Shown piece after piece: positions 25,503 through 41,618 of a stretch of DNA of 64,000 nt; the stretch's first letter is position 1; each line of letters opens with the position of its first letter. The translations under genes and the position numbers were made by a program. The stretch covers positions 1 to 64,000 of the forward strand of contig JASMKH010000004.1 of NCBI GenBank assembly GCA_030749435.1, written 5' to 3'. The notes below the pieces were generated by a model. It had not been told where the DNA came from. It saw only the letters and a program-made list of their open reading frames with translations, and made no database searches. The stretch comes from Phycisphaerales bacterium (lineage in GTDB: Bacteria > Planctomycetota > Phycisphaerae > Phycisphaerales > SM1A02).

Positions 25503-28500
25503 CAGCCCTCGGCGTCAAGATGAGCCCTCATGGCCTCGACCCTGTCTCGCGTGGAATCGTCCGTTGCAAGGTGATCCGCCTGCTGCAGATGCTCCCGAGC
25601 GGCGGTCCGGTCACCGCCAGAGTGCAGCATTTGAGCCATGTGCAGATGCGCCAACGCCGTCGGCTGCCGCCGCAGGGACTGGCCGACGAGGTCACGCCCC
25701 TTCGACTGATCTCCTGCCCGCCAAGCGACCCACCCAGCCGAATCCAATGCCGCTGCTCCTCGTGGATCCAGCGACAAGGCCTGCGTCACATAGGGGACAG
25801 CCTCGGCCGGTCGATCGAGGTCCTCGGACAGGATCATGGCGATCCTGCGCAGCAACGGGCCGTTGTTCGGTTCGATGGCGAGCCTCGCCAGACAACTTGA
25901 CAGGGCCGCCTCGTGCTTGCCGAGGGCCTGTTGAATCGTCGTCATGGTGTCGAGAATCACCGACTGACGTGGTGCCATCGCTATGGCCCGGAGCGCGTAA
26001 GACTCGGCCGCGGCAGCGTCATTCTCGACTGTCGCCAGAAGATATGCGTAGTTGTTGAGCGCAATCGGATCGTCGGGTTGCAACTCGACGAGTCTCTTGA
26101 AGGTGTCTCTCGCCTTCGCATTCATTCCCGCTTGCAGTTGGATGCCCCCAAGTTGACGAAGGTCCGCAACAACGAACTCGGGATCGGACTCGGCGGTCAC
26201 TTCCCGCTGAATCTCCTCGGCCACAGCCAACTCGTCACCCCCGCGGAGAACATGGAACTGTGCCAGACCGCGCTTGTCCCAGGTCGTCGGCTCACCCTTC
26301 GTGACGGCTTCAACCATCGCCAGAGGCTCCGACACATCCCCCTCCGGGAACAGCACATACAGGTCTCGATACCAACCAGCAAGGTGCATCGGCGGCATCA
26401 GACCGCGGTCAATGGCACTGCGATACACATGGTAGGCGTCTCGAAGTGTCTCTTTCGATCGAGCTTCCAGTCCGAGACCATGCTCGGCCCTCGCAAGAAG
26501 GCCGGAAGCGCGAGGGTCATCTTGGAGCTGTTTCGGATGCAACTTGACGGCCTCCAGAAAGGCCTCGTAGTCCCACGGATCCGACGTCACCGTCGCATCT
26601 GCCAGCGCCGTCAATCTCCGCCGCGTCGGCTCGATCTTCCACGCTTCGACGTAGTTCCGCGTAGCGCCCGCCAAATCGTCTCCGGACTGGGCGTAGTAGT
26701 CGCCAAGCAAGCCATACCAGTACGGGTCACGAGGTTCCAAGGTGATGGCTTGCTGCAATGTGTCGATTGCGCGAGTCGGCGTCCCGGCCGTCACATAGGC
26801 GCTGGCCAGTCGACTGCGGACCCTCCGGGCGTCCGGTGAGCGACGCAGGAAGGCCTCCAGATCGAGTACTGCCCGCCTCGGATCGCCAAGTGCCTCACTG
26901 ACATCGGCACGCTGAATGACGAGCTCTTCGGACGACTCTCCGATCTCAGCCGCGGCATCCAGATACCGCATCGCCTGCTCAAGCTTCACGCGATCCAGCG
27001 TGCGATGGTATTCCAGCACGAGGCTCTTGACGAGATCCACGTACGGCCCCGGGCGTGTTGGATCCAGGCTGGACGCTCGCTCCAACGAACCGCGGAATGC
27101 ATCTCTCGCCGCCAACGCAGCCGCCGTGTCTCCCGCAGCTTCAGCCACCGATCCCCGGGTGCTGTGGAGCCCGGCTTCCAACAATGCCAGTTGATATTCA
27201 TCCGGGTTCGTCTGAAGCAGTTGCTGTATCGCTGCTTCCGCCTCGTCCAGACGCTGCAGTTGCAGCAGGCAATCGATTTCGCGCATTCGAAGTCCCAGCG
27301 CTCCGGTCACTTCGCTGGCCGTCGTCAGGTACCGCAGCGCATCTTCCCACAGCCCCGCTCGGTGCATCATCTGACCGAGGGCACTGTCGATCTCCATCGC
27401 CACGGGACTCTGAACCTCCCGGTACTCCTCCAGCAACTGGCTGGCTTCCCAGAAGCGATCCGAGTCAAGAAGAAAGCGGCCTACCTGAAGCGCCTGCTGC
27501 AGAATCGTATCTTCATCACGCTGGGCCGCCAGATACTCTCTCAACACAACCATCATCGCGTCACGTTGCCCGATCTCGCGCAGAATGGTCGCGTGCTGAA
27601 TTGCTTCACGCAGCGTCGCGTCGGGTTGGGTACGAAGTTGTTCGGCGATCACCCCAATCCTCTTGAGCCAAGAGTCCTTCAGCTGCGTCAACCGCTGCTG
27701 CTGCTGCTCGCCGGTCATCCCCAGCCACTGCCGGCCCGAGACTCTCGGATTGCCGTTGTCGTCAAGGTCGTAGCCATACTCCGCTGGCAGGGCCGCCAGC
27801 ATCCCCGCATACCAGAGCGCGGCATTGCGGTCGTTGGGGTTTCGCTTCCATTCCAGCAGCCGCTCCCGAAGCGCCAGCCCCGGCGTGCCGTGAAGCGCCT
27901 CAAGTTGCAACCAGGACTCTCGCAACTCGCGATTGCCCGGCCTGCGGTTGGCCGCATCGGCCAGCACCGCGACCGCTCGAGTCGGATCGCCTCCCTCCAA
28001 CAGGTGCAGCCTCGCCAGTTCGGTGACGCCTCTCGTGTCAGACGGGTTCCTTCGAACCAGTTCCTCGTATGCAAGCCGCGCCTCGTCCCACTCCTCCAGT
28101 TCACGCATGGCCTGGCCCAGCGTTTCCCATGTCATGTTCCGCCAGGGAGAGACGTCCGTCGCCCGCCGGGCTGTAGCGGCGGCGCGCTTCAGAAGCTCAG
28201 TACGGGCCTCGGTGCCTGACTCCGCGGCCGACCCCATTGCCAGCAGAAGCCGAGCCTCAGCGAGATTGCCTCCAGCGGAGTCGAAGTCGCCGTCTCTGGC
28301 CGCAGGCAGCATCGCCTCCGCTTGGGCAAATGCACCGCGCTGCAGCAGCTGCTCGAAGTGGTAGGCAAACGCTTCAGCGCTGCTTTCAACGGAATCCTGC
28401 ACAAGTTGTGCCAGTGGCGCTGCCTCCTCACGAGCACGTGATGCCGTTTCCAGCAGTTTCGCCGAACGCTCGGGGTTCCTCTCCGCCAGAGACTCCGCCT

Positions 28501-30592
28501 GCGACTCACTTCGACTCGCCAGACTCTCCAGACTGATGAACAGGGCAATGTCGTGGGTATCTCCAGGAGGGTATTGCTCGGCCACTGCAGCCTTGGCCAG
28601 ATCTACCGGGTCGGCATTGGCCATGACCATCGCCAATTGTCGCAGCCTCTGATTGTCGGGCTGCAAGGCCAGCGCCCGATCCATGGTGACCTGCGCCGAC
28701 TCGGTGTCGCCCAGTCTCGCGTCCACCTGCGCGATCGCCACGAGGAGCCGAACGTCGTCCGGGAAGTCGCCCATCAACCCCGCCAGCAGATCCTTCGCTT
28801 CCGACAGTTTCCCGTCCACCTCAAGTTGGTCCGCCTTGGAGATCGCCTGTAGTACAGCGTCGCTGTCGCCAGCGAGCTGCGTCTCGCGGTCCTGAGCCGA
28901 CAATGACGTCAGTCGAAGCCCCTCTTCAAACTTGGCAATGTCCGGATTCTTGGCCCTCACGCCCGCGGGGATCGTGGCGAGAAGTTCGGCTGCGGCCTCA
29001 TAGTTGCGGAGCCTCGCATGCAACTGTGCCAGGAGCATGCGGTTCCTGACGCTTCGAGGCTCATCCCTGACTGCCTGTTCAAGTCGTTGGACTGCAAGCC
29101 CGGCCTGACCGATCCGCTCAAGCGATTGGGCGCTCTTTCGCAGGCTCTCGGCATCCAGGGTGCCTCCGAGATCCAACGATCGCTCAAATGCCTTGACTGC
29201 ATGGGCATGCCTTCCCTCAGCGTGGGCGATTCGGCCATCCAGTCGCAGTACCAGTGGACTGTCTGACGATCCCCCAAGCAAGTCCCGCACCCTGTCTCTG
29301 AGTTCCTCCGCCCGCGCGGTGGCTTCGGCGGCATCGAGGGATTCTCGCAGTTGCTCGTTGATCTCGAACCGGGTTACCGCGGCGGCCAACTGGTCACCGC
29401 GTTGCCGCTGTGATGCGATCGAGACCGGCAGTTGTGGCGAGTTCAGCACCTCGGCAAGCAGCGTGTCCGCCTCCTCATAGCGCTTCGTCTCGACCAGTTC
29501 GGCCGCCAGCAGCACCTTGGCATTGAGGTCGTCCGGGTGTTTCTCCAACCACTTCTTGAACATCGCTGCAGCCCGCTCGTGCCCGGTCTCCAGATCGATC
29601 AGCGCCAGGTACCGCGCCAACTCCAGAACCTGGTGCCGTTGAACACCGACTCCACTTGCGATTCTCGCCTCTGTCCGGGTCAGTTGCGCCTCCAACTCGT
29701 CGAGTTTCGAGCCAACTACGTCCTCGTCCAGTTCGCCTCGCAGTTCGGCAACGAGTTCATGAACATACATGTGACGAACGACGGCCAGAAGGGTCTCAAT
29801 ACCCTCGGGGTTCGCCGCGATCGCCTCGTCGTACGTCCCCTGAGCCATTGCGAGGTTGTGCGCCTCCTGCTGGACTCGCCCCTCAAGGCCCAGCCGCCGC
29901 GCCACTGCCATGCGGCCGAAGGCCAGCCTGGCCAACCCTTCGTCAGAGCCTGGTTCCAACTCCACGTACTCGCTCAGTTCGGCCTCGCCCGGAAACCGCA
30001 CGTGTCCGGTCGCATCCACGTCCCCGAGAAAGTTGGCCTGCCCCAGACGCATCTTCGCCATTCCGAGCAGTAACGTGGCACGGTTGTACACGGGCGTGCC
30101 CGATTGGAATCGCTTCCGCTGCTCTTCCGCCTGAGACTCCAGCAGTGCCCAATAGGCGTCGCTGTCGGTGTTCATGGCGGCCTCCCAACACTCGTCCAGC
30201 GATCGAAACGCGAGTTCCTCGTTGCCACTGGTGAACTGCGCGTGCTGCGCCAAGGCGACCACATAGTCCCGGTACAGGGACCGCGCCCGCTCCGGCGTCT
30301 CAGGAATCATGTCTCTGTAGATCTTGATTCGCAGATTGTGCGCGTCCTGGTTGCCCGTCTCCCGATAGAGCACCTTGCCGATTGCCCGGAGCGCCTTCTC
30401 GTGCTTTCCTTCATCGAGAAGCGCCTGCCCGGCGGCCAGGTTTCTGCCGACGCTCCCCTTGATCTTGAGGTACAGGAGCCCGGCTCCGACCCCGCCAACC
30501 ATCACAAGACTGAGTCCGACGATGGCGAGCAGCCGCGTGTTGAGTTTCTTCTTGCCCTTGCGGCCCCGCGTCTTTTTTCGCTTCGTCGCCAT
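25502..30592 (-). CDS. Giant membrane-anchored TPR-repeat protein of the exosortase locus
   Basis: This protein of about 1,696 residues starts with a lysine/arginine-rich cytoplasmic tail (ATKRKKTRGRKGKKK) and one membrane helix (about 20-45). Dozens of tetratricopeptide-like repeats then fill the rest (for example GQALLDEGKHEKALRAIGKV near the start and ARDTFKRLVELQPDDPIALN near 1530). It lacks a visible enzymatic domain. Large TPR proteins accompany exosortase/polysaccharide loci, where they are thought to be scaffolds. The ATG at 30592 has GGAG 9 bases upstream; ATG 30601 is only one base from that site and less likely. Its last codons touch the Wzc-like start. A scaffold between secretion, polymerisation and sorting is inferred. 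Confidence 0.85.
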   Translation of the reverse strand: MATKRKKTRGRKGKKKLNTRLLAIVGLSLVMVGGVGAGLLYLKIKGSVGRNLAAGQALLDEGKHEKALRAIGKVLYRETGNQDAHNLRIKIYRDMIPETPERARSLYRDYVVALAQHAQFTSGNEELAFRSLDECWEAAMNTDSDAYWALLESQAEEQRKRFQSGTPVYNRATLLLGMAKMRLGQANFLGDVDATGHVRFPGEAELSEYVELEPGSDEGLARLAFGRMAVARRLGLEGRVQQEAHNLAMAQGTYDEAIAANPEGIETLLAVVRHMYVHELVAELRGELDEDVVGSKLDELEAQLTRTEARIASGVGVQRHQVLELARYLALIDLETGHERAAAMFKKWLEKHPDDLNAKVLLAAELVETKRYEEADTLLAEVLNSPQLPVSIASQRQRGDQLAAAVTRFEINEQLRESLDAAEATARAEELRDRVRDLLGGSSDSPLVLRLDGRIAHAEGRHAHAVKAFERSLDLGGTLDAESLRKSAQSLERIGQAGLAVQRLEQAVRDEPRSVRNRMLLAQLHARLRNYEAAAELLATIPAGVRAKNPDIAKFEEGLRLTSLSAQDRETQLAGDSDAVLQAISKADQLEVDGKLSEAKDLLAGLMGDFPDDVRLLVAIAQVDARLGDTESAQVTMDRALALQPDNQRLRQLAMVMANADPVDLAKAAVAEQYPPGDTHDIALFISLESLASRSESQAESLAERNPERSAKLLETASRAREEAAPLAQLVQDSVESSAEAFAYHFEQLLQRGAFAQAEAMLPAARDGDFDSAGGNLAEARLLLAMGSAAESGTEARTELLKRAAATARRATDVSPWRNMTWETLGQAMRELEEWDEARLAYEELVRRNPSDTRGVTELARLHLLEGGDPTRAVAVLADAANRRPGNRELRESWLQLEALHGTPGLALRERLLEWKRNPNDRNAALWYAGMLAALPAEYGYDLDDNGNPRVSGRQWLGMTGEQQQQRLTQLKDSWLKRIGVIAEQLRTQPDATLREAIQHATILREIGQRDAMMVVLREYLAAQRDEDTILQQALQVGRFLLDSDRFWEASQLLEEYREVQSPVAMEIDSALGQMMHRAGLWEDALRYLTTASEVTGALGLRMREIDCLLQLQRLDEAEAAIQQLLQTNPDEYQLALLEAGLHSTRGSVAEAAGDTAAALAARDAFRGSLERASSLDPTRPGPYVDLVKSLVLEYHRTLDRVKLEQAMRYLDAAAEIGESSEELVIQRADVSEALGDPRRAVLDLEAFLRRSPDARRVRSRLASAYVTAGTPTRAIDTLQQAITLEPRDPYWYGLLGDYYAQSGDDLAGATRNYVEAWKIEPTRRRLTALADATVTSDPWDYEAFLEAVKLHPKQLQDDPRASGLLARAEHGLGLEARSKETLRDAYHVYRSAIDRGLMPPMHLAGWYRDLYVLFPEGDVSEPLAMVEAVTKGEPTTWDKRGLAQFHVLRGGDELAVAEEIQREVTAESDPEFVVADLRQLGGIQLQAGMNAKARDTFKRLVELQPDDPIALNNYAYLLATVENDAAAAESYALRAIAMAPRQSVILDTMTTIQQALGKHEAALSSCLARLAIEPNNGPLLRRIAMILSEDLDRPAEAVPYVTQALSLDPRGAAALDSAGWVAWRAGDQSKGRDLVGQSLRRQPTALAHLHMAQMLHSGGDRTAAREHLQQADHLATDDSTRDRVEAMRAHLDAEG

Positions 30593-30593
30593 T

Positions 30594-32375
30594 TCAGTCA
30601 TTCTCCGAGTTGTCGATCACTTCGCTCCAATCGGGAAGCGACCGCATGACCTCAGGCAGCGCGTGCGAGAGGAAGGACTCGGACTCCGAGAGAAACGCGT
30701 CTCGGTCGAATCCCGCATCGCCTTCTGCAACCACCTGCACTTTGCAGTAATACGCATGTTTGTCACCCCCGGTGAACGCCGCCATCTTGACCCCTGACGG
30801 AGTCGCCTTCCACCTGCCGTTGGCGATGAAGAAGTACCCGGCGTGAATCCGCCGCTGTGGATGACGCGGGTCGTGGAACTCCATGTACCGCATCAGCCGA
30901 TCACCCACCGGCATTCGCACGATCACCTCTTCGCCGGTCGACGCGTCGATGCTGCGTGCCAGCGGGTACGGACTGCCATCCAGCACACCGGCGGGATCGT
31001 CCGGCCAGTCACTCCCGAAACTCCCCAAGGCAACGTTCTCAGGCGAGGCAGATCGCTGCACCATGCCGCCAGCGGTCATGCAACGATCCGGTACGTGCGG
31101 CACCGCGTCGATCTGATCCGTGTAGTAGGCGACATGGAACTGCAGCGCCGACCGGCCACGGCCGCCCTGATCGACATAGGTCCGTGAGATGTAACTGTTT
31201 GTCCCCAACTGCTCGACCGAAGCCGCGTCGTACTGGGTGTCACTGACCGCTCGCCATGTCCCGACCGAGGATGGAATGAGCGACAACGATCTCCGAAGCG
31301 GTACGGGTTCTGTCTGGAGATGGACTTGCATGGCCTGAGCGCCATAGGAGAAACTCACTTTCGCGACAGCCAGAACCGCGATGCTCGCAAGAAACACTCC
31401 GATGATGCCGCGATCGAACCGCAGCCCGATCGACTTCGCATCTGGTTCAGCCTCGTCGGCATCATCACCATCGAGCACCAGCAGTTTGAGTACCCACATG
31501 ATGCCGAGGTAGATGAAGAATGCCGGAACAAGCCACAGCAATCCCACCATCGAGTGAAAGTCTCCGGCGGCAAAGTTGGTGTCCATCGTCGACAGGATGC
31601 CGAGCGTCATGACCCGAAGGATGTTCACGAAGATCGCCGTCGGGATCGCCATGAACACGAGCACACATCGTTGCCATACCGTGTCAAGGCCGCGATACGC
31701 CATGGCAACACCGAGCGCAAGAAACGCCACGAGCATCCGCATCCCTGAACATGCCTCGGCGATGTTGAGCGGAACGATGCGATCCTCGTGGTAGATGTCG
31801 ATCACATGCCCCTCACGGGCTACGTCGTATCCGAGAATGGACAGTCCGATCTCCGCACCGACCGTCGCAATGCCCTGCAGTTGAAAGGTCACGATTTCAA
31901 GCAGGCGATCGGACACCGTCTGGCTGAAGACGATGAGGTACAACACAGGGAACCACATCCACCGCATCGCCCTCCACCCGCAGAACGCAAGTGCCAGACC
32001 GAAAATGGTCAACCCGACGCCCATTCCCATCAGGTTGTGATGACGAAACACCACGGGCCCAATCGATGCGAAACTGAACCACGCGACGCCGAAGACCACG
32101 AGCAGCAGTCCAGTAATGCTTGGCTTGAGCGGCGACTCCAGTATGCGATCCCTGTTGAGCCAGACGAACCAGCCAGCGATGAAGGGTATGACCAGCGTGT
32201 GCCCCCAGTCGGCCTGAAACTCGATTGCAAACCGGACTTGCCGCGAGAGGAACGACCAGAACATCCAGACGAAGATGATGAGCACAGTGGCAACCGCCAA
32301 TGCAACGTCGGATGGCGACGGGCGGTAGACCCGACCGATCTTGGTCGCCGGGGATGTTGACTTGCTCATACTCAT
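30594..32375 (-). CDS. Exosortase fused to an EpsI-type domain
   Basis: This is a membrane transpeptidase-like protein of 593 residues. Residues 1-300 have about eight membrane helices with the exosortase catalytic triad: Cys209 in EACSGMRML, Arg254 in NILRVM and His274 in DFHSMVGLL. After a helix near 325-345 comes the EpsI-type domain (about 360-593: VPLRRSLSLIPSSVGTW, YYTDQ, PDRCMTAGGM), which in other bacteria is a separate exosortase-associated protein. Exosortases cleave PEP-CTERM-type tails and anchor the proteins to the envelope or polysaccharide. No protein with such a tail is seen in this window. It lies 42 bases after the Wza-like gene. ATG 32369 has a better-spaced GGAAG than ATG 32375. 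Confidence 0.93.
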   Translation of the reverse strand: MSMSKSTSPATKIGRVYRPSPSDVALAVATVLIIFVWMFWSFLSRQVRFAIEFQADWGHTLVIPFIAGWFVWLNRDRILESPLKPSITGLLLVVFGVAWFSFASIGPVVFRHHNLMGMGVGLTIFGLALAFCGWRAMRWMWFPVLYLIVFSQTVSDRLLEIVTFQLQGIATVGAEIGLSILGYDVAREGHVIDIYHEDRIVPLNIAEACSGMRMLVAFLALGVAMAYRGLDTVWQRCVLVFMAIPTAIFVNILRVMTLGILSTMDTNFAAGDFHSMVGLLWLVPAFFIYLGIMWVLKLLVLDGDDADEAEPDAKSIGLRFDRGIIGVFLASIAVLAVAKVSFSYGAQAMQVHLQTEPVPLRRSLSLIPSSVGTWRAVSDTQYDAASVEQLGTNSYISRTYVDQGGRGRSALQFHVAYYTDQIDAVPHVPDRCMTAGGMVQRSASPENVALGSFGSDWPDDPAGVLDGSPYPLARSIDASTGEEVIVRMPVGDRLMRYMEFHDPRHPQRRIHAGYFFIANGRWKATPSGVKMAAFTGGDKHAYYCKVQVVAEGDAGFDRDAFLSESESFLSHALPEVMRSLPDWSEVIDNSEND

Positions 32376-32417
32376 ACTTCCAGGAACAGATCGGGGGTGG
32401 CCTGCCTCGCCATGAGG

Positions 32418-33926
32418 TCAGCGGAAATTCGTCGGAGGCGGCCCAAAGACGTCGTTCCCGAAGTTGCGATCAAGCAGGAATCCGAATCCATAGTTCATCC
32501 GAAGGCCGTTTCGTAGGACTGCCAGGGGGTAGGCGAACCAGTTGGTGCCAACCAGCACGTGATCGTTGGGCTTGATCACCACATCGGGTTCGGTGCGTCT
32601 GCGGATGGCTCCCAGATCGAGTCGAATGGTTGCCTCACGACCCTCATCAACCTGACGAACCAGATCCACGCGATCGGGAATGGCCAGAGCGCCCAGGCCT
32701 CCGGCCATGGCGATCAACCGGCTCAGCGTCAGCGGATCCGCCGCGGGAAGTGGATAGGCATTCGGTGCCTGCACCTCACCGCTGACGTACACGTACCCGA
32801 CCGGTGGTCCGTCCACATACAACTGATCGCCAGGGCGAATGACGAGGTTGAGGCTCGACTCGCCGTGCGACAGACGCTGGTAGGGAACCTCGATCACGCG
32901 CTCGACGACCAGATCGGGCTCGGTCGCTTTGCCGTCCTGTCCTGCCGCTGCCGAAGCCGCATTGCCACCTCGAGCACGAACCCACTGCTTCTTGTCGGGC
33001 AGATACACGAATGGTTCGGTGCCCGCAGTGGCGTCACCCCCCGCTTCGACCCTCGGGAGTGTGACCGGTGAGGGTGATATGTCCTCGACATCGATCGGCG
33101 GATCGCCAGCGGAGGCCCACACGCCCGGGCTCGGCGGCGTCGCCGGACTGGTGCCTTCGTCCTTCAACTTCTCAATGAGCGATTCAATGTCAACCGGCGG
33201 CTGAGACGCAGCGTCGTCCGCCGGTTTCGATCGGGACTGCGGCGACTCCGGATGCCAGGCCGCCTGAAGGTGCGGCGCGACCGCGACCTGCCGAATCACA
33301 TAGACGCGACGAGTCGAAAGGGGAACCCCGCCCGCCATGGTGAGCGCATCGAGCAGCCGCAACGTCGGATCCTGCAGGTTGAAGCGGCCGGGCTGGTTGA
33401 CGTGCCCGTGGATGATGTACGTCAACGCCCCGCCCTCGACCAGGTTGACGGTGACCGTCGGATTCTTCATGATCTTCTTCGAGAGCCGGTGAATCAACGC
33501 CTGCTGCAACTCGGGCACCGTCAATCCGGCGGCCATGACACCCCCAAGCACGGGCACATGGATGACGCCCGCCTGATCAACCCGAAGGGTGACCGGGAAG
33601 AACTGGCCCGGGGTGTACAACTCGAAGATCTGCAACTCAATCACATCACCTGGGTGCAGGCGGTAGGCCAGATCGTTCGGCATCAGGTCCTCGGGCGTCA
33701 CAGAGGAAGTCTCGCCCCACAGATCAGTGCTGGGCTCGATCGCGGCGATCCGATCAAGGACGGGCATCGTGACCGGCGTCGAGCCGAAGTAGCCCGTCTT
33801 CGAGGGGTCGAAAAAGCTGTTGACTTCGCACCCACCCGCGCACGCAACCATCGCCGTGAGCAGCATCAACACCCAGCCAGCAGGGCGATTCCTGCAGGAT
33901 GTCAACTCAACCAGACTGTTGCTCAC
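32418..33926 (-). CDS. Wza-like polysaccharide export lipoprotein
   Basis: This outer-membrane polysaccharide channel protein has about 502 residues. The N-terminus has a basic stretch, a hydrophobic segment and the lipobox ACAGGC. A poly-export domain follows (about 85-180: YRLHPGDVIELQIFE, DQAGVIHVPVLG), with two SLBB segments (HGHVNQPGRFNLQDP and VSGEVQAPNAYPLPAADP). A proline/serine-rich insert (about 240-320) lies between the SLBB domains. The GTG start at 33926 has GGAG 9 bases upstream; the ATG at 33983 would lie before an atypical N-terminus. It is the first gene of the minus-strand locus and should act with the Wzc-like protein. Confidence 0.88.
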   Translation of the reverse strand: MSNSLVELTSCRNRPAGWVLMLLTAMVACAGGCEVNSFFDPSKTGYFGSTPVTMPVLDRIAAIEPSTDLWGETSSVTPEDLMPNDLAYRLHPGDVIELQIFELYTPGQFFPVTLRVDQAGVIHVPVLGGVMAAGLTVPELQQALIHRLSKKIMKNPTVTVNLVEGGALTYIIHGHVNQPGRFNLQDPTLRLLDALTMAGGVPLSTRRVYVIRQVAVAPHLQAAWHPESPQSRSKPADDAASQPPVDIESLIEKLKDEGTSPATPPSPGVWASAGDPPIDVEDISPSPVTLPRVEAGGDATAGTEPFVYLPDKKQWVRARGGNAASAAAGQDGKATEPDLVVERVIEVPYQRLSHGESSLNLVIRPGDQLYVDGPPVGYVYVSGEVQAPNAYPLPAADPLTLSRLIAMAGGLGALAIPDRVDLVRQVDEGREATIRLDLGAIRRRTEPDVVIKPNDHVLVGTNWFAYPLAVLRNGLRMNYGFGFLLDRNFGNDVFGPPPTNFR

Positions 33927-34155
33927 ACCATGGCTCTCCAGGGGCCCCAATGGGATCTCAGAAGGGGGAACTGTACCCGACAAGATGGTGCCGGGCCTCC
34001 AATCATCGACTCTGAACCTTGCCGTGGTTCAACTTCAATCGCGGATTGGGGCGTGTTTCGGTGGTTTGAGGGCGGGCCGGGATCGCCGCGGACACCGGCT
34101 CCGGATGACGGCGAACCGCGGCCCCCCCGGGGGGCGAATCGTCGCTGTCCCGAGA

Positions 34156-34161
34156 TATCAT
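34156..34161 (+). promoter_or_regulatory. Candidate -10 box of lipA
   Basis: TATCAT overlaps the first possible start codon and ends 7 bases before the in-frame ATG 34169. This fits a leaderless transcript starting at the second ATG. No clear -35 box was found. Confidence 0.35.
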
Positions 34162-35164
34162 GCCGCGGATGCCGCACCCCCCCGCCGCCATCGACCGCCA
34201 TCCCCGCCCGCTCGGTGGCGATACCGCCCGTTTCGGGGCGGGAGAGGTGGTCCTGAGCTTGAGCGATCGGGTCCTCGACAACGTGGAGACTCGGACGCTG
34301 GCAGTGCCCCGCAAGCCCTCTTGGATTCGAGCCCGCGTCCCAGGAGGCGAGTCCTATGGAACACTCAAGAAACGACTGAGCGACCTCGGCCTCAACACCG
34401 TGTGCCAGGAGGCCTCGTGCCCCAATATTGGCGAGTGCTGGGGACGTGGCGTGGCCACCATCATGATTCTGGGTGATACCTGCACCCGCGCCTGCGGATT
34501 CTGCAACGTCAAGACCGGACGCCCCCCCGTCACCGATCTCGAAGAGCCCGACCGAGTCGCCCGGATGCTGGCCGAGTCCGGGCTGCGGCACGTGGTCGTG
34601 ACCTCGGTCGATCGCGATGACCTTCCCGATGGGGGCGCCGCCATCTGGGCCGACACGATCTCCCGATCGCGGGCCTCGTGCCCCGGCATGTCGATCGAAG
34701 CCCTGGTTGGAGACTTCAAGGGAAACCGCGTGGACATGCAAGTGGTCATCGACGCCGCCCCCGACATCCTGGCCCACAACGTGGAGACTGTCGAGCGGAT
34801 GCACCCCGCGGTGCGGCCGCAGGCTGACTACGAGCGTTCCATTGAAGTGCTGGCCCACATCAAGCAGGCCGGACTGACGTCCAAGACGAGTTTGATGGTC
34901 GGCATCGGCGAGCGTGACGATGAAGTCGTCTCCACCATGAACGACATCAGGCAACGGGCCGGGACCGACATTCTCACGATCGGCCAGTACCTCCAGCCGA
35001 CCAGAAATCACCTCCCGGTGGACCGCTGGATTCCACCTGCCACCTTCACGGCATGGAAGGACGCCGGTCTGCAGATGGGCTTCCGGGTTGTTGAGTCCGG
35101 CCCGCTCGTGAGAAGCTCCTATCACGCCGACGCACAGGCCACTGCAGCGGCCTGCAATCGGTAG
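34160..35164 (+). CDS. lipA: Lipoyl synthase
   Basis: This radical-SAM enzyme inserts two sulfurs into octanoyl groups to make lipoate. The auxiliary iron-sulfur cluster ligands appear as CQEASCPNIGEC, and the radical-SAM cluster as CTRACGFCNV (CX3CX2C). Other family motifs are TSVDRDDLPDGGA, HNVETVERMHP, TSLMVGIGE, and the C-terminal GPLVRSSYHAD with the conserved Arg-Ser-Ser-Tyr. Length 334 is normal. A TATCAT box overlaps the first ATG (34160), and the in-frame ATG 34169 lies 7 bases past it, so the true start may be 34169 on a leaderless transcript. No lipB is in the window. Confidence 0.96.
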   Translation: MPRMPHPPAAIDRHPRPLGGDTARFGAGEVVLSLSDRVLDNVETRTLAVPRKPSWIRARVPGGESYGTLKKRLSDLGLNTVCQEASCPNIGECWGRGVATIMILGDTCTRACGFCNVKTGRPPVTDLEEPDRVARMLAESGLRHVVVTSVDRDDLPDGGAAIWADTISRSRASCPGMSIEALVGDFKGNRVDMQVVIDAAPDILAHNVETVERMHPAVRPQADYERSIEVLAHIKQAGLTSKTSLMVGIGERDDEVVSTMNDIRQRAGTDILTIGQYLQPTRNHLPVDRWIPPATFTAWKDAGLQMGFRVVESGPLVRSSYHADAQATAAACNR

Positions 35165-35611: not shown

Positions 35612-37249
35612 ATGCCACGCATCCGCACCCCCCCAACCACCGGCCCCCCCCGCAGCGACCCCTGTCCCACGGGCACCGCGCCGGCCGAGACGTGGCGGGC
35701 CCGGTTTTTCTCGCGGCGGGCACTGCTGACCCAACTCGTCCTCGCGCTGGCAGCGGCGCTCACGGGTGCCACCGCGCTCTACTTCCGGCAGGCGGACATG
35801 TACGGGGCCGATATCTTCGTGCGGCTCAGCAAGTTGGAGGATCTCTGGGGTCTCACGCTGCCTGGCGGATTGGGAATCTGGCTCGCCGCTGCCTGGGTGA
35901 TTGTGGCGATGGTCCTCATACTGTGGCTCCGGGATCGCTTCTTCCCTGGAACGGAGGGCACCGGGATCCCGCAGGCCATTGCGTGCCTCAAGGTCAAGGA
36001 CAGCCCCTTTCGGCGCTACATGCTGTCGGTCCGCATTGCGATCGGGAAGGTCCTGCTGCTCACCATCGGCTTGTTTGGTGGGATGACCATCGGCCGCGAG
36101 GGGCCATCGGTCCACGTGGGGGCCTGCCTGATGTACCTGGCGACTAGGATCCGACGGTTTCCGGATCATCTGGTGCAGCGAGGTCTCATCCTCGCTGGCG
36201 GAGGTGCCGGGATCGCCGCGGCATTCAACGCGCCGATCGCTGGCATGATCTTCGCCTTCGAGGAAATCGGACGGTCCTTCGAGAAAAACAACGCAAGCAC
36301 GATCGTCCGCACGGTTCTGATCGCCTCCGCGGTCGTGATCGCAAGTCTGGGCTGGGACTACCTCTTCTATGGGCAGGTGTCGCACGAGTTCGGGTTTGAC
36401 GCCGTTCATTGGCTGGCCGTTCTTGTCATTGCCGTCATCGGCGGCTTCCTCGGAGGCCTGTTCGCCAGAGCCGTCGTTTGGGGAACGCCGATCGTGACCC
36501 GGTCGCTCGCACGCCACAGGTGGCTCACGGCCGGGGGCCTCGGGTTGGCACTGGCCATCACGGGCCTGCTCTCGGAGGGGCAGAGTTACGGCAGCGGATA
36601 TCCGCAAGCCCGGGCGATCCTGATGTATCGCGACACGGACTTCTACGCCACGCTTGGCGTGGCTCAGGACGCCTCGGCAGAGGAGGTCCACGAGGCCTAC
36701 GCGCGGCAGGCACATACCCAGACCCTTCTCGGGAGAACCGGCGAGCCACTGGAAGCGGCGATGCTGCTTGAGCAAGCGTACCGCACGCTTGCGAATCCGA
36801 TGGAGCGCCAGTTCTACGACGACTGGGTCGTACCGGGGCCGTCGCCGTGGTGGTATGCACCCGCCAAAGCGACCGGTTCGTTCTTCAGTTTGATCAGCGG
36901 GATCCCGGGAGGCCTGTTCGACCCGAGCCTGTCCGTTGGCGCTGGCCTGGGCAACGCCTTCGCAGACGTCTTCCACTCCATCTTCAACGGAATCAGACCG
37001 CAGTTCGTCATCATGCTGTTCATGGTGGCCTACTTCGCAGGCGTCGTACAGAGCCCCATCACGGTCTTCGTCATCATGATCGAGATGACCGATGCGCGCT
37101 TCGTGACGATTCCACTCATGCTCGCGGCAATCATCGCTTACGAGTGCTCATCGCTCGTCTGCACGAAGTCGATCTACGAGGCGCTTGCTGAGTTGTTCCT
37201 GGGCAACATTGAGCGGCGGAGCGGCGAAACCCCGAAGCTCGCCTCCTGA
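35612..37249 (+). CDS. ClC chloride channel/transporter with an inserted J-domain-like segment
   Basis: This 545-residue ClC family protein has the signature segments GTEGTGIP (113-120, with Thr in place of the usual central Ser), GREGPSVHVG (161-170, gating Glu163), FAFEEIG (214-220, the likely proton-path glutamate) and SGIPGGLFDPS (429-439). These suggest a chloride/proton exchanger. Between the helix ending near 323 and the last motif, residues 343-405 resemble a DnaJ J-domain: DFYATLGVAQDASAEEV, AYARQAH, LLEQAYRTLANPMERQFYDDW-like ending. The HPD tripeptide that activates Hsp70 is absent. No CBS domains are present. The start has no strong ribosome site but follows a TAGAGT box. Confidence 0.92.
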   Translation: MPRIRTPPTTGPPRSDPCPTGTAPAETWRARFFSRRALLTQLVLALAAALTGATALYFRQADMYGADIFVRLSKLEDLWGLTLPGGLGIWLAAAWVIVAMVLILWLRDRFFPGTEGTGIPQAIACLKVKDSPFRRYMLSVRIAIGKVLLLTIGLFGGMTIGREGPSVHVGACLMYLATRIRRFPDHLVQRGLILAGGGAGIAAAFNAPIAGMIFAFEEIGRSFEKNNASTIVRTVLIASAVVIASLGWDYLFYGQVSHEFGFDAVHWLAVLVIAVIGGFLGGLFARAVVWGTPIVTRSLARHRWLTAGGLGLALAITGLLSEGQSYGSGYPQARAILMYRDTDFYATLGVAQDASAEEVHEAYARQAHTQTLLGRTGEPLEAAMLLEQAYRTLANPMERQFYDDWVVPGPSPWWYAPAKATGSFFSLISGIPGGLFDPSLSVGAGLGNAFADVFHSIFNGIRPQFVIMLFMVAYFAGVVQSPITVFVIMIEMTDARFVTIPLMLAAIIAYECSSLVCTKSIYEALAELFLGNIERRSGETPKLAS

Positions 37250-37406: not shown

Positions 37407-38240
37407 ATGAGTACCTCAATGCCATCCGATCTTGACGCCTACTTCCGCGACATCGCCCGCGTCGACCTGCTCGATCCCCGCGAAGAGCGGCAACTTGCCT
37501 GGCGCGTCATCAACGACTCCTGCGGCGACGCCAAGTCGAAGATGATCCAGGCGAATCTGCGGCTCGTGGTGAGTATCGCAAAGCGGTATGCCTCGCGAGG
37601 CGTCCCGTTGGCCGACCTGATCAACGAGGGAAACGTCGGGCTCATTCGTGCAGTGGAACGGTTTGACCCCGCACTCGGGCACCGGTTTTCGACCTATGCA
37701 ACCTGGTGGATCCGCAAGACCGTCAAGCAACTCGTCGAAGACGCCGGGCATCCGATGCACGTCCCCACCTACATGCGGCATCGCATGGCTCGATGGGCCG
37801 AGACGCTCATGGGTCTGCAGGACAAGCTTGGTCGCGCCCCAACCCCAGCCGAGATGGCCAGAGCGATGAATGTGCCGAAGTGCAAACTGGACCTCATCCA
37901 CCGCACCATGGCAGCGACCCGCGCCGTCTCCACCGGCCATGCGACCGGCTCAGAGGGCCCCACGCCGGTCGACCTTCATCCCGATGACCCGACCGCCGAG
38001 GCAGCGCACCTCGCCGAACGGCGGGACGACTACGACAAGGTCCGCACACTGCTCATGGAAATGGATGTTCTGGACGCCCAAGTTGTATGCCTTCGATTCG
38101 GTCTGGACGGCGGACTGCCTCGAACGCTCAAGGAGACCGGCCGAAGCGTCGGTCTGACCCGCGAGCGTGTGCGACAGATCGAGCAGCGTGCGCTGACGCT
38201 GATCAGAAACGCCTTTGAAGACCGACGTCTCGCGGGCTGA
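37407..38240 (+). CDS. Sigma-70 family RNA polymerase sigma factor
   Basis: This 277-residue factor has regions 1.2, 2, 3 and 4 of the RpoD family but lacks region 1.1, which places it among non-primary (group 2/3) factors. Region 1.2 is [15 protein letters not shown]; region 2 is [36 protein letters not shown] and [16 protein letters not shown]; region 4 ends with [15 protein letters not shown]. The RpoH-box sequence is not seen. It is next to, and convergent with, the HdeD and Hsp20 genes, so control of a stress regulon is possible but inferred. No ribosome site precedes the ATG. Confidence 0.92.
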
Positions 38241-38831
38241 CTACGCCCGCACCTCCGTGGCGGGCGGATTCGCCTCAGGCCCACGGACAGCACTCCAGAG
38301 CGAGAGCAACATCATCCCGAAGAAGATGAGTTGAATGCCGAAGAGCAGGCCGGGAGCCCACAACGCATCGGATGGATACCAGAGGATCAGCAGCACGGCG
38401 ACGACGATGCCGGCGATTCCACTGATGACCTGCAGGCCTGGCGCGGTCATCGAGCGAGCGGGAAATCCGCTGACATCCGAGATCCCCCGAATCATCACTC
38501 CTGCCGCCAACAGAAGTGTGATCGCCTTCAATCCCTCGAAGGGCCACACGAGCAGCATCACGCCGATGGCCCCGATGAGCACGGCGAAGGCGGCGGTTGA
38601 TCCGAGGTGTTCTGCGCCTCCGACAACACATCGGATGAAGCCGAGAATCGCGAGCATGATCGCAACCACGCCGAGAAAAAGCTCCAGGCCTTCGCTCGCT
38701 GATACCGGATAGATGATGGCCCCGAACCCGCCGAGGAGGCATACGATCGCCTCGAACAGCAGCACGCCCCTGCCTTGTCGAAGGACCGCTCGAATCTGTG
38801 AAGGCGTCGCCTCGGCCGTCGGTTGACTCAT
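38241..38831 (-). CDS. HdeD-like membrane protein (DUF308)
   Basis: This 196-residue protein has six predicted membrane helices in three pairs, as in the HdeD family: VLLFEAIVCLLGGFGAIIYP, FLGVVAIMLAILGFIRCVV, and the later TGIAGIVVAVLLILWYPS-like pair. HdeD is linked to acid-stress resistance in enteric bacteria; in this organism its function is not known. AGGAG lies 8 bases before the ATG. It ends exactly at the base after the sigma-factor stop on the opposite strand (38240/38241). It is the last gene of the small heat-shock island, after a gap of 143 bases with two hairpins. Confidence 0.85.
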   Translation of the reverse strand: MSQPTAEATPSQIRAVLRQGRGVLLFEAIVCLLGGFGAIIYPVSASEGLELFLGVVAIMLAILGFIRCVVGGAEHLGSTAAFAVLIGAIGVMLLVWPFEGLKAITLLLAAGVMIRGISDVSGFPARSMTAPGLQVISGIAGIVVAVLLILWYPSDALWAPGLLFGIQLIFFGMMLLSLWSAVRGPEANPPATEVRA

Positions 38832-38890
38832 GTCGCCTGCTCCTGAAACCGCTCATGCTATCGCAGCGGACCCGGGCACGAAGTGCAACA

Positions 38891-38916
38891 CGGGACCCGG
38901 CTCAGGCCGAGTCCCG
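38891..38916 (-). terminator. Hairpin between hsp20 and the HdeD-like gene
   Basis: CGGGAC (38891-38896) pairs with GTCCCG (38911-38916), with an inner CGGC/GCCG pairing and one mismatch. On the minus strand it is followed by TGTTGCACTT, a weak T-rich end. It could end or attenuate transcription before the HdeD-like gene. Confidence 0.4.
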
Positions 38917-38946
38917 CGAAGCGGAGGAAGAAGATGGGGAGGCTCC

Positions 38947-38964
38947 GGCCCTCGGATGAGGGCC
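38947..38964 (-). terminator. Hairpin just after the last hsp20 stop
   Basis: GGCCCTC (38947-38953) pairs perfectly with GAGGGCC (38958-38964) around a 4-base loop, 10 bases after the Hsp20 stop on the minus strand. A pyrimidine-rich stretch (CCCCATCTTCTTCC) follows on that strand, which makes it the more terminator-like of the two hairpins here. Confidence 0.45.
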
Positions 38965-38974
38965 AGTGAACGCG

Positions 38975-39400
38975 TCAGTTCGTGCGAATGTCGATCTTCC
39001 GGGGCACGACCGCCTCGGCCTTGGGAAGGGTCACTTCCAGAACACCGTTGCGGTAGGCGGCCTCGATTCCTTCGGCGTTGATACCGTCGCCGATCCTGAA
39101 GGACCGGTGGAAGTCTCCCACGCCGTACTCTTCATGCCGCAAGGTGCCCAGGGTGTCGTAGCGGGGCCGCACCTCGGCATCAATTGTCAGCATGTTGTTC
39201 TCAACGGAGATGGAGATGCAGTCCGAGCACGTGCCGGGCATGTCAGCGATGACCGTGAATGTCGAGTCGGTCTCGTACACATCTACCGGTGCCCTGTAGT
39301 TCTGAGTGCGCTTCACGGTGTCGGTGCCGCAGGACTGGTCCCGCGTCGCACCACAGCAGGTCATGTCATTGTTCACGTCGGTGTTGGTGAGGTTGTTCAT
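38975..39400 (-). CDS. Small heat-shock protein (Hsp20 family), copy 3
   Basis: This 141-residue holdase chaperone carries an alpha-crystallin domain (about 40-130), with DVYETDSTFTVIADMPG at its start, and GVLEVTLPKAE at the end of the domain. The C-terminal tail has IDI, the I-x-I motif used for oligomer assembly. The N-terminal arm is short and has two cysteines near CCGATRDQSCG. AAGGA lies 7 bases before the ATG. It follows the second Hsp20 gene by 44 bases. The three Hsp20 genes differ strongly from each other, so they are old paralogs and not recent duplicates. Confidence 0.93.
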   Translation of the reverse strand: MNNLTNTDVNNDMTCCGATRDQSCGTDTVKRTQNYRAPVDVYETDSTFTVIADMPGTCSDCISISVENNMLTIDAEVRPRYDTLGTLRHEEYGVGDFHRSFRIGDGINAEGIEAAYRNGVLEVTLPKAEAVVPRKIDIRTN

Positions 39401-39444
39401 CGTTCGTTCCTTTCATCGTTGTTGAATCAGAGGAATTGGTGTAC

Positions 39445-39906
39445 TCAGGCCTCCCGAACCGCGATCCGGCGAGTACGCGCGGGTCGGACCTTGGGAAGCG
39501 TGATGGTCAGGATGCCGCCCTCAAGGCGAGCATCGATGGCGTCCGGCTCGATGGCGACGGGCAGTCGCATGGTTCTCTCGAATGTGACGGTGGAGCGTTC
39601 GCGGCGAAGCGTGGTCGCCTCGTCAGGGATGTCCAGCGTGCGAGTGCCCGAAACGTTCAGCGAGTGATCGGAGGCATTGACGTCGAGATTCTCAGGCGCC
39701 ACGCCCGGCAATTCCGCCTCGAAGTACAGGTTGTCGTCGTCTTCGAGCAGGTTGGCGGCCGGGTGAGGTCGCATTGAATCGAAGAGCCGCGTCGGCCAGG
39801 CTGACGCAAGGCCCGGCGTTGTCACCCGATCGAAGAGCCGATCGAATTCGTGCCGGAGGGAGTCCATCGCGGTGGTGGCCGGTGTCAGAATCGTGCGTGT
39901 GTTCAT
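39445..39906 (-). CDS. Small heat-shock protein (Hsp20 family), copy 2
   Basis: This 153-residue Hsp20 has an N-terminal arm (MDSLRHEFDRLFDRV, typical of class A bacterial Hsp20), an alpha-crystallin domain with DNLYFEAELPGVAPENLDV, RSTVTFERTMRLPV and GGILTITLPKVRP, and a C-terminal IAV tail that serves as the I-x-I/V motif. ATG 39906 has GGAGG 7 bases upstream; the frame extends further to 40149 without a plausible N-terminus. It lies after a 259-base gap that contains a strong hairpin. Confidence 0.94.
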   Translation of the reverse strand: MNTRTILTPATTAMDSLRHEFDRLFDRVTTPGLASAWPTRLFDSMRPHPAANLLEDDDNLYFEAELPGVAPENLDVNASDHSLNVSGTRTLDIPDEATTLRRERSTVTFERTMRLPVAIEPDAIDARLEGGILTITLPKVRPARTRRIAVREA

Positions 39907-40104
39907 GGCAGTTCCTCCACATGGAACAGGGAGCATGTCGCTCCGGGGTTCTTGATTGCGCCAGCCCGTGCTGGCGTCCATTCCCAGAGTTGGCAAGTGG
40001 CGTGCCACTCGGGCGTGCATCCCGCAGTCTGTACCGCTCCAGGGCCACCGGACGAACCTGCCAATCAGGCAAACCGCTGCCAACCTGACACCACGCACGA
40101 TGCG

Positions 40105-40140
40105 GCAACGCCGGGGCGGTTGGTGCCGCCCCGGCGTTGC
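40105..40140 (-). terminator. Perfect 15-bp hairpin after the long Hsp20 gene
   Basis: GCAACGCCGGGGCGG (40105-40119) pairs without mismatch with CCGCCCCGGCGTTGC (40126-40140) around a 6-base loop. It starts 25 bases after the stop of the long Hsp20 gene on the minus strand. No T-run follows on either strand. The rest of 39907-40165 shows a smaller hairpin (39961-39974, CCAGC/GCTGG) and nothing else recognisable. Confidence 0.5.
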
Positions 40141-40165
40141 GATACGCAAAGCAGTTCATGGTCGA

Positions 40166-41155
40166 TCAGCAGGCGAGACTGACCTCGCGGTTCAGAACCT
40201 GCTCGACGGTGCCGACCTTTCTCGGCAGAACGATGCTGAGTACGCCGTGATCGACTCTGGCGGTGATGCCGCTCAGGTCGATGTCGTTTCCGAGCACGAA
40301 CTCGCGGCGAAGCATTCGTGGCGCCTGCCTTTCACGGATGATCGGTGTCACTCCGTTCTTCAGCGAGGCAGCCCCGCCGGCGGTCACCTCAAGCATCAGA
40401 CGGCCGTTGGTGGCGGTCAGTTCGATGTTCTCGAGCGAGATGCCAGGAACGTCCGCTTCGATGATGCAGGTGTTGGCGTCTTCGGCGATGTCCACTGGAA
40501 TCGTGGCGTACTGGCCGAAGGAGTTCAGGGACGTGTCGTTGCGGATGCCCATGCCGGGGTCGTACATCGGAACACTCCATGTCAGGGTCTCCAGTTGACG
40601 CATCGCCTGAATGGGGCTCACCTCAGCGGTCGCTGCAATCGCCATCGCCTGGCTCGGGTTGATCCGGGCGAGACCAATGAGCTGCCGGGCGAGGGACAGG
40701 TCGATATTGGCGACCTTGGTGAGTTTGGCAGCGGTCCATGGGCAGCCGTCGGCGATCTTGGAGAGATTCGCAATGAAGCGTGGGTCGATGCTCGTCAGGC
40801 GAATGGCCAACTGCGCCGCCGCCGGATCGATCATCGCGATTCGGTTCACGATTGCACGGGGTCCGAACGAAGTTTCGAGGTCCGTCATTCCGGTCTGGAC
40901 GAAGGGCACGCGCTGAAGGTGCGGCATCGTCTGGAAGGCGGAGTCGGGCATCATGCCGACATTGATCGGGCAGGCGTCCGAACCGAACTCGACGCCGGTG
41001 GCCACGGGAGCCACGCCCATGCCTGGAGCGGCGGCGTGCGGGGTCTGGCCCCATGTGGTGCTGCCGAAGCGATCTGTGAAGTAGCCGTTGCTGGTGCGGC
41101 CGGTGAAGGTGCTTTCGCAACCACGATTGTCTTTGACCTGTACGTTGATAGCCAT
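40166..41155 (-). CDS. Long Hsp20-family protein with a repeat-containing N-terminal half
   Basis: This 329-residue protein is more than twice the normal Hsp20 length. The C-terminal part (about 220-320) is an alpha-crystallin domain: DANTCIIEADVPGISLENIEL, RMLRREFVLGNDIDL, GVLSIVLPRKVG. The N-terminal half is unrelated to known Hsp20 arms. Residues 109-192 contain about six repeats of 13-15 residues, such as IDPAAAQLAIRLTS, IDLSLARQLIGLAR, INPSQAMAIAATAE and VSPIQAMRQLETLT. Residues 20-60 are glycine/alanine-rich. The ATG has AAGGAG 7 bases upstream; a frame to 41314 has no support. The tail lacks a clear I-x-I motif (it ends EVSLAC). Confidence 0.88.
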   Translation of the reverse strand: MAINVQVKDNRGCESTFTGRTSNGYFTDRFGSTTWGQTPHAAAPGMGVAPVATGVEFGSDACPINVGMMPDSAFQTMPHLQRVPFVQTGMTDLETSFGPRAIVNRIAMIDPAAAQLAIRLTSIDPRFIANLSKIADGCPWTAAKLTKVANIDLSLARQLIGLARINPSQAMAIAATAEVSPIQAMRQLETLTWSVPMYDPGMGIRNDTSLNSFGQYATIPVDIAEDANTCIIEADVPGISLENIELTATNGRLMLEVTAGGAASLKNGVTPIIRERQAPRMLRREFVLGNDIDLSGITARVDHGVLSIVLPRKVGTVEQVLNREVSLAC

Positions 41156-41180
41156 TTTCGAGCTCCTTGAGTTGAAGGCC

Positions 41181-41618
41181 TCAGGAAGCCGATACGCCCC
41201 CGCAACGCTGCGGGAAGACACCGGGTTCCTGTGAAACATGACGCGACGCGTGAGCACCCGCACGGCGGTCAATCCCCCCGCCGATCGGAATGCGCACGCG
41301 AATCTGATCTCCACGGTCCCGCGACACCAGAATCGGAGCCCTCGGGGGTCGCCGGAACACGACGTGCGTCGTGACCCGCTGAATCCCTGGGACCTCGTCC
41401 TGATCTGGTACCGCGCGAACTGCGTCGATTGAGAGGACGCGACCTCGCAGACGAGCGCCGGTGCGGGGCAATGCAGCAGCCGGGAGGTCAGCCGTCATCT
41501 CAATCCACTGGTTGGGTACGACCTGTATCGCCAGATTGGCGGTCATGGTGGCGGGTTGGGTTCCCGCCGAGGTGTCCCGAGTGGCCGTCTTCGCGTCGGT
41601 ATGCGTGTGGCGGATCAT
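41181..41618 (-). CDS. Unrecognised protein at the head of the Hsp20 cluster
   Basis: This is a 145-residue protein of unknown family. ATG 41618 has GGGAG 7 bases upstream. The first 25 residues are threonine/alanine-rich and look disordered (RHTHTDAKTATRDTSAGT). The middle is a beta-pattern segment (LAIQVVPNQWIEMTADLP, ARLRGRVLSIDAV, RVTTHVVFRRPPRAPILVS). No signal peptide or membrane helix is visible. It ends 25 bases before the start of the long Hsp20 gene, so they are probably co-transcribed. A gene in this place may encode a partner of the chaperones, but nothing in the sequence proves it. An in-frame ATG at 41546 is a later alternative start. Confidence 0.6.
   Translation of the reverse strand: MIRHTHTDAKTATRDTSAGTQPATMTANLAIQVVPNQWIEMTADLPAAALPRTGARLRGRVLSIDAVRAVPDQDEVPGIQRVTTHVVFRRPPRAPILVSRDRGDQIRVRIPIGGGIDRRAGAHASRHVSQEPGVFPQRCGGVSAS

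Follow-up and report, generated by a model that had tools for sequence, protein, structure and literature searches.

We found that the ClC protein encoded at 35612–37249 of the window (the whole stretch of DNA that was analysed, 64,000 nucleotides) contains a full-length J domain at residues 343–405, inserted within the transmembrane core between ClC helices L and M; both the domain and its position are well supported by sequence and structure prediction. The domain lacks the His-Pro-Asp (HPD) motif, and it appears on balance probable that, instead of serving as a co-chaperone, it has been reused on the exoplasmic side, as a cap or docking module by which the exchanger is stabilised or tuned. 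The gene, the insert and the two flanking helices are located as follows.

35612–37249, + strand: ClC-type Cl−/H+ exchanger gene with inserted J-like domain, 545 amino acids (Pfam Voltage_CLC, E 3.9e-74; model pLDDT 82, pTM 0.84; VIA)
36599–36628, + strand: ClC helix L, residues 330–339, immediately before the insert (model, alignment)
36638–36826, + strand: J-like domain, residues 343–405 (Pfam DnaJ, insert profile, hhalign, AlphaFold, Foldseek, VIA)
36854–36895, + strand: ClC helix M, residues 415–428, immediately after the insert (model, alignment)

Translation of 36638–36826 on the forward strand gives DFYATLGVAQDASAEEVHEAYARQAHTQTLLGRTGEPLEAAMLLEQAYRTLANPMERQFYDDW, which is exactly residues 343–405 of the open reading frame. 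A J-domain-like segment had been proposed here from the letters of the DNA (hereafter the sequence-only reading); its coordinates proved exact, and the Pfam DnaJ profile (PF00226) covers the segment at profile positions 1–63 of 63, i.e., as a whole domain. The same reading had suggested a Pfam check of the region around residues 320–425, and residues 319–425 searched alone indeed match DnaJ with E 3.5e-7 and 30.7 bits, exceeding the gathering score of 27.8. With the full-length protein, the match (E 1.8e-5, 25.2 bits) lies slightly under this score, which speaks for the view that the segment is no J domain but part of the usual ClC architecture (a loop or a helix pair). That view is, however, practically untenable, the profile, fold and comparative results all being opposed to it. 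Thus, the insert segment matches Thermus DnaJ among solved structures at 1.7e-6, a profile of 17 homologous inserts finds DnaJ2, a solved J domain, in the PDB with E 4.6e-15, and hhalign aligns the insert with a profile of the relatives' canonical J domains over 64 columns at a probability of 99.2. Moreover, the DnaJ match is not due to chance, because Pfam DnaJ is matched by all 17 homologous inserts and by all 15 full proteins with the insert, in contrast to none of the five orthologues without it.

The predicted structure points in the same direction. An AlphaFold model of the ClC protein, built with 20 sequences (pLDDT 82, pTM 0.84), has the complete ClC set of 18 helices, A–R, plus J helices I–IV (residues 344–348, 356–369, 381–394 and 396–405) between L and M, so that the proposed insertion inside the transmembrane core holds by both model and alignment. 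When the insert is modelled by itself, these four helices are predicted again (pLDDT 75.8), in answer to the suggestion that a structure prediction be examined for a J fold. With the insert as query, the Foldseek matches listed were J domains, the best with E 2.0e-3 and probability 1.00 (modest E-values, the chain being so short), and the VIA matches listed were J-domain proteins with Z up to 10.9 and an rmsd of 2.2 over 66 residues. Segment 343–405 is not a ClC helix pair, because all 18 ClC helices lie outside it and orthologues exist without it; an ordinary ClC loop or helix pair was thus ruled out by the profile, fold and comparative tests, the insert profile, Foldseek and hhalign results refuting it.

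The remainder of the product belongs to the ClC family by profile (Voltage_CLC, E 3.9e-74) and by fold (VIA Z of 44–45 against CLC-ec1 and a cyanobacterial ClC, and about 44 for the ClC part of the model against CLC-ec1). Its functional motifs, aligned with CLC-ec1, are the following.

35957–35971, + strand: GTGIP, counterpart of CLC-ec1 GSGIP (Ser107 replaced by Thr117); invariant in 20 sequences
36092–36106, + strand: GREGP with the gating Glu163 (CLC-ec1 Glu148); invariant in 20 sequences
36260–36265, + strand: Glu217-Glu218 (CLC-ec1 Glu202-Glu203; internal proton glutamate); invariant
36911–36925, + strand: GLFDP at the start of helix N (CLC-ec1 GIFAP); invariant
37175–37177, + strand: Tyr522 (CLC-ec1 Tyr445); invariant

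In the 20-sequence alignment, the anion-path set of GTGIP, GREGP, GLFDP and Tyr522 is invariant throughout, with Thr at the Ser107 site, and the external and internal exchanger glutamates (Glu148 and Glu203) are present as Glu163 and Glu218. The claim that the ClC motifs are intact (GREGP Glu163, the Glu pair, GLFDP and the pore Tyr) was therefore confirmed by both the CLC-ec1 and the 20-sequence alignments, and, with the pore Tyr and the glutamates for gating and for protons preserved, the product is expected to be a working Cl−/H+ exchanger. With CLC-ec1 and other bacterial ClC Cl−/H+ exchangers it shares the complete helices A–R, GREGP, the internal Glu pair, GxFxP and the pore Tyr; it differs from CLC-ec1 in the J-like domain between L and M, in Thr for Ser107 and in GLFDP for GIFAP. 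These last two substitutions (Ser107 to Thr at 35957–35971, and GIFAP to GLFDP) characterise this ClC subfamily, and anion selectivity is possibly altered. Rfam, promoter and terminator scans around the ClC gene gave no matches.

The insert resembles DnaJ/Hsp40 J domains (PF00226) in the full length of its profile match, in its four-helix fold and in its core residues, but departs from them in the parts that contact Hsp70, of which the first is located as follows.

36719–36727, + strand: QTL, residues 370–372, in the HPD position (alignments; third position Leu in 18 of 18)

The absence of HPD, already remarked on in the sequence-only reading, holds for all 18 distinct insert-bearing sequences in the alignment. 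The position of the HPD Asp is occupied by Leu372, invariant in 18/18, and is placed identically by both alignment methods, with the His position uncertain by one residue; the Pro is retained in six of the 18, one of which (L043) also retains His. The replacement follows the pattern x-(T/P/K)-Leu, and the invariant Leu at the Asp site indicates that HPD is replaced and not merely lost, a point going beyond the sequence-only reading. Judged from these residues, descent of the insert from an HPD-bearing ancestor, with the Hsp70 contact replaced, would fit, because Pro is kept in 6/18 and in one case together with His. The second part is helix II, which in J domains is positively charged and binds DnaK (PMC5519331). 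Its mean net charge is −0.9 in the inserts vs +2.75 in the relatives' canonical J domains (n = 16), a single insert of the 18 reaching +3. A predicted exoplasmic site inside a membrane protein is a further difference from DnaJ/Hsp40.

As we read the ClC fold, its F–G loop is cytoplasmic. Mean K/R numbers per loop are 3.1 for the cytoplasmic J–K loop, 2.4 for the cytoplasmic D–E loop and 0 for K–L, and the L–M region with the insert is net acidic (6.8 K/R vs 13.8 D/E); this charge pattern agrees with the periplasmic side that we infer for the insert from the topology of the ClC family. ClC-6 is N-glycosylated at Asn410, Asn422 and Asn432, between K and M (PMC1868598), the K–M loop of bClC-K is extracellular and lies at the chloride entrance (PMC5362633), and the K–L linker of CLC-7 contacts the luminal domain of OSTM1 (PMC7440919). 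Since the K–M region is exoplasmic in the family, the L–M loop should be exoplasmic too, which would place the J fold on the periplasmic side, next to the entrance for anions and beyond the reach of DnaK; the sequence-only reading had not considered the side of the membrane. The lost HPD and the altered helix II charge fit a periplasmic J fold unable to meet DnaK. A J domain would thus be kept where DnaK should not reach, though J domains are defined by Hsp70.

By sequence and fold, the segment is a J domain, as would befit a true co-chaperone through which DnaK would be drawn to the transporter or to clients close by. Nevertheless, this role is highly improbable and was rejected as a likely one: HPD is absent in 18/18, helix II, by which J domains bind DnaK (PMC5519331), is neutral or acidic in most members, and the loop is exoplasmic by ClC family topology.

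A J fold without HPD is known from Pam16 and NdhU, and the insert shares with the HPD-less J-like proteins (Pam16/Tim16, CJD1 and NdhU) both this feature and a link to membrane proteins; NdhU and a Tetrahymena complex I J protein were indeed among the structural matches listed for the insert (Foldseek/VIA). These proteins, however, are separate or terminal domains facing a matrix or stroma that contains Hsp70, whereas the insert lies within a transporter core. With the J fold present and HPD absent, the insert falls under the definition of HPD-less J-like domains in PMC3196505. CJD1 was unable to replace DnaJ and bound ARC6 via the J-like domains of both proteins (PMC3196505). In the same manner, the insert might dock onto a second J or J-like domain, or onto some partner in the periplasm, as in Tim16/Pam16–Tim14/Pam18 and CJD1–ARC6; HPD-less J-like domains do work in this way in organelles (PMC3196505), and the Hsp70 face is remodelled instead of simply eroded. 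We regard such partner binding as decidedly unlikely, no partner having been found: the sole other J protein detected in the genome (84% complete) is of the DnaJ/CbpA type, has an intact HPD and is expected to be cytoplasmic.

The same architecture, for which a search of other Phycisphaerae had been advised, occurs in three genera, namely, in all nine genomes of the source genus, in six that belong to genus g52 and in two from g35. Of the other genera in the family, nine have a closest match that is interrupted at the insertion point or whose frame is too short for the insert, and the 16 insert-free sequences examined have a short loop at the site. Among 400 genomes sampled from the order, many of the same family, no additional insert was found, and 392 genomes sampled from the phylum yielded one (G492). 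Longer open reading frames (in genus g33 and others), considered as candidates for other domains in the same loop, have their extra length at the N- or C-terminal end instead.

In a tree built without the insert columns and rooted at the midpoint, the 18 insert sequences form one side of a branch with support of 100/100, corresponding to a single state change. Because insert-free lineages branch below the insert clade under this rooting, the insert state is most likely a gain, and the insert most likely arose once, in the ancestor of the three Phycisphaerales genera. Two sister genera have an insert-free ClC gene in the same surroundings (lipA, sigma factor, HdeD-like, Hsp20s and ApbE). The comparison with planctomycete ClC proteins lacking the insert thus gave, besides the short loop, syntenic orthologues, which indicate that the insertion occurred at an established locus; that the insert is most likely a later gain is again an addition to the sequence-only reading. 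A swap of paralogues in place of an insertion was ruled out for the two sister genera, lipA, the sigma factor, HdeD and Hsp20 flanking both forms. Orthologues with and without the insert at the same locus provide a natural before-and-after pair for the effects of an inserted domain on a transporter.

The additional copy in G492 (L066/L105) belongs to a distant planctomycete family, in which none of five relatives carries the gene and the island neighbours are absent. It was probably acquired by horizontal transfer, which is likelier than misbinning because the closest relatives of a flanking gene lie in that family.

Median dN/dS of the insert was 0.22 (g1) and 0.28 (g52), as compared with 0.05–0.09 for the transmembrane core and 0.40–0.43 for the N-terminal tail, all values being rough with dS near saturation in most pairs. 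No insert sequence in the alignment has an indel within residues 343–405, the length being kept, and Asp343, Tyr345, Ala354, Ala362, Tyr363, Leu372, Ala389, Leu393, Glu398, Arg399, Tyr402, Asp403 and Trp405 are invariant. By these substitution patterns, the insert is under purifying selection, although it evolves about 3–5 times faster than the transmembrane core and its surface may be weakly constrained.

The faster evolution, together with the poor conservation of the K–M region among mammalian ClC proteins (PMC1868598) and the fact that the sister orthologues manage without the insert, favours the main rival of a functional domain: a tolerated passenger, functionless in itself, that landed in a permissive loop on the exoplasmic side and still folds so that the transporter is not disturbed. 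We consider a passenger rather unlikely, as the insert is retained by 9/9 genomes of the genus and by two more genera, with no indels and no broken copies. Furthermore, the positions of Leu372, Trp405, Arg340 and Thr342 never vary, although the J consensus either has another residue there or does not extend to them; this argues for a positive role of the insert.

Returning to the cap or docking module that we favour, a functional ClC Cl−/H+ exchanger would have acquired a whole J domain once, in the loop between helices L and M, which presumably lies on the periplasmic side, where the anion path opens outwards, and would hold the domain beyond cytoplasmic DnaK. Selection would then have kept the fold while the Hsp70-contacting parts were replaced (HPD by x-T/P-Leu, and the basic helix II by a neutral or acidic one), and the J-like domain may now act as a built-in exoplasmic module, much as OSTM1-type accessory subunits cover the luminal face of CLC-7. 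The guess in the sequence-only reading of a structural or sensing module in place of a co-chaperone fits the HPD, helix II charge and predicted exoplasmic loop data. In CLC-7/OSTM1, too, the exoplasmic face of a ClC protein lies under a helical domain, which contacts the K–L linker (PMC7440919). OSTM1, however, is a separate disulfide-rich subunit, whereas the J-like domain is built into the ClC chain. We know of no relation of OSTM1 to J domains. More tentatively, the periplasmic J-like fold with its remodelled former Hsp70 face could possibly be a built-in gate or sensor at the anion entrance; if so, a J fold would operate outside the cytoplasm with no Hsp70 involved, as a one-lineage gain at a stress-response locus.

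CBS and similar added domains of ClC proteins are known from the cytoplasmic end, unlike the present whole fold, which would be embedded in the membrane core and face outwards. In the literature searched, a scope without most subscription papers and the main bacterial J-protein survey, there was no described case of a ClC protein with a DnaJ or J domain, and an earlier mention is possible.

The neighbours of the ClC gene are as follows.

34160–35164, + strand: lipoyl synthase (lipA), conserved neighbour (Pfam Radical_SAM, LIAS_N; synteny)
37407–38240, + strand: sigma-70 family factor, group 2, RpoD/RpoS-like, conserved neighbour (profile matches; synteny)
38241–38831, − strand: HdeD-like membrane protein (DUF308), conserved neighbour (profile matches; synteny)
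39445–40149, − strand: Hsp20 small heat-shock protein, conserved neighbour, true start probably further in (profile; synteny)
40166–41314, − strand: Hsp20-domain protein with a long N-terminal extension, neighbour (Pfam HSP20 at residues 275–369)

The HdeD match is weak (35.9 bits, far under the equivalog cut-off of 189). The sigma factor/HdeD-like/Hsp20 island (37407–41314; L033–L046, L107 and L108) is kept across several genera, with or without the J insert, and resembles, in gene content, a stress regulon that includes a sigma factor of its own. A probable role of the transporter in acid or protein-damage stress is suggested by these neighbours (the RpoD/RpoS-like sigma factor, the HdeD-like protein and the Hsp20s), which predate the insert. 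In the Hsp20-domain protein at 40166–41314 (−), the N-terminal extension comprises about 270 residues without a Pfam match of its own. On the other side of lipA, a large TPR protein of 1699 amino acids (25502–33983, −) adjoins an exosortase (EpsH/DUF3485) and a polysaccharide export protein, forming an exosortase/exopolysaccharide locus.
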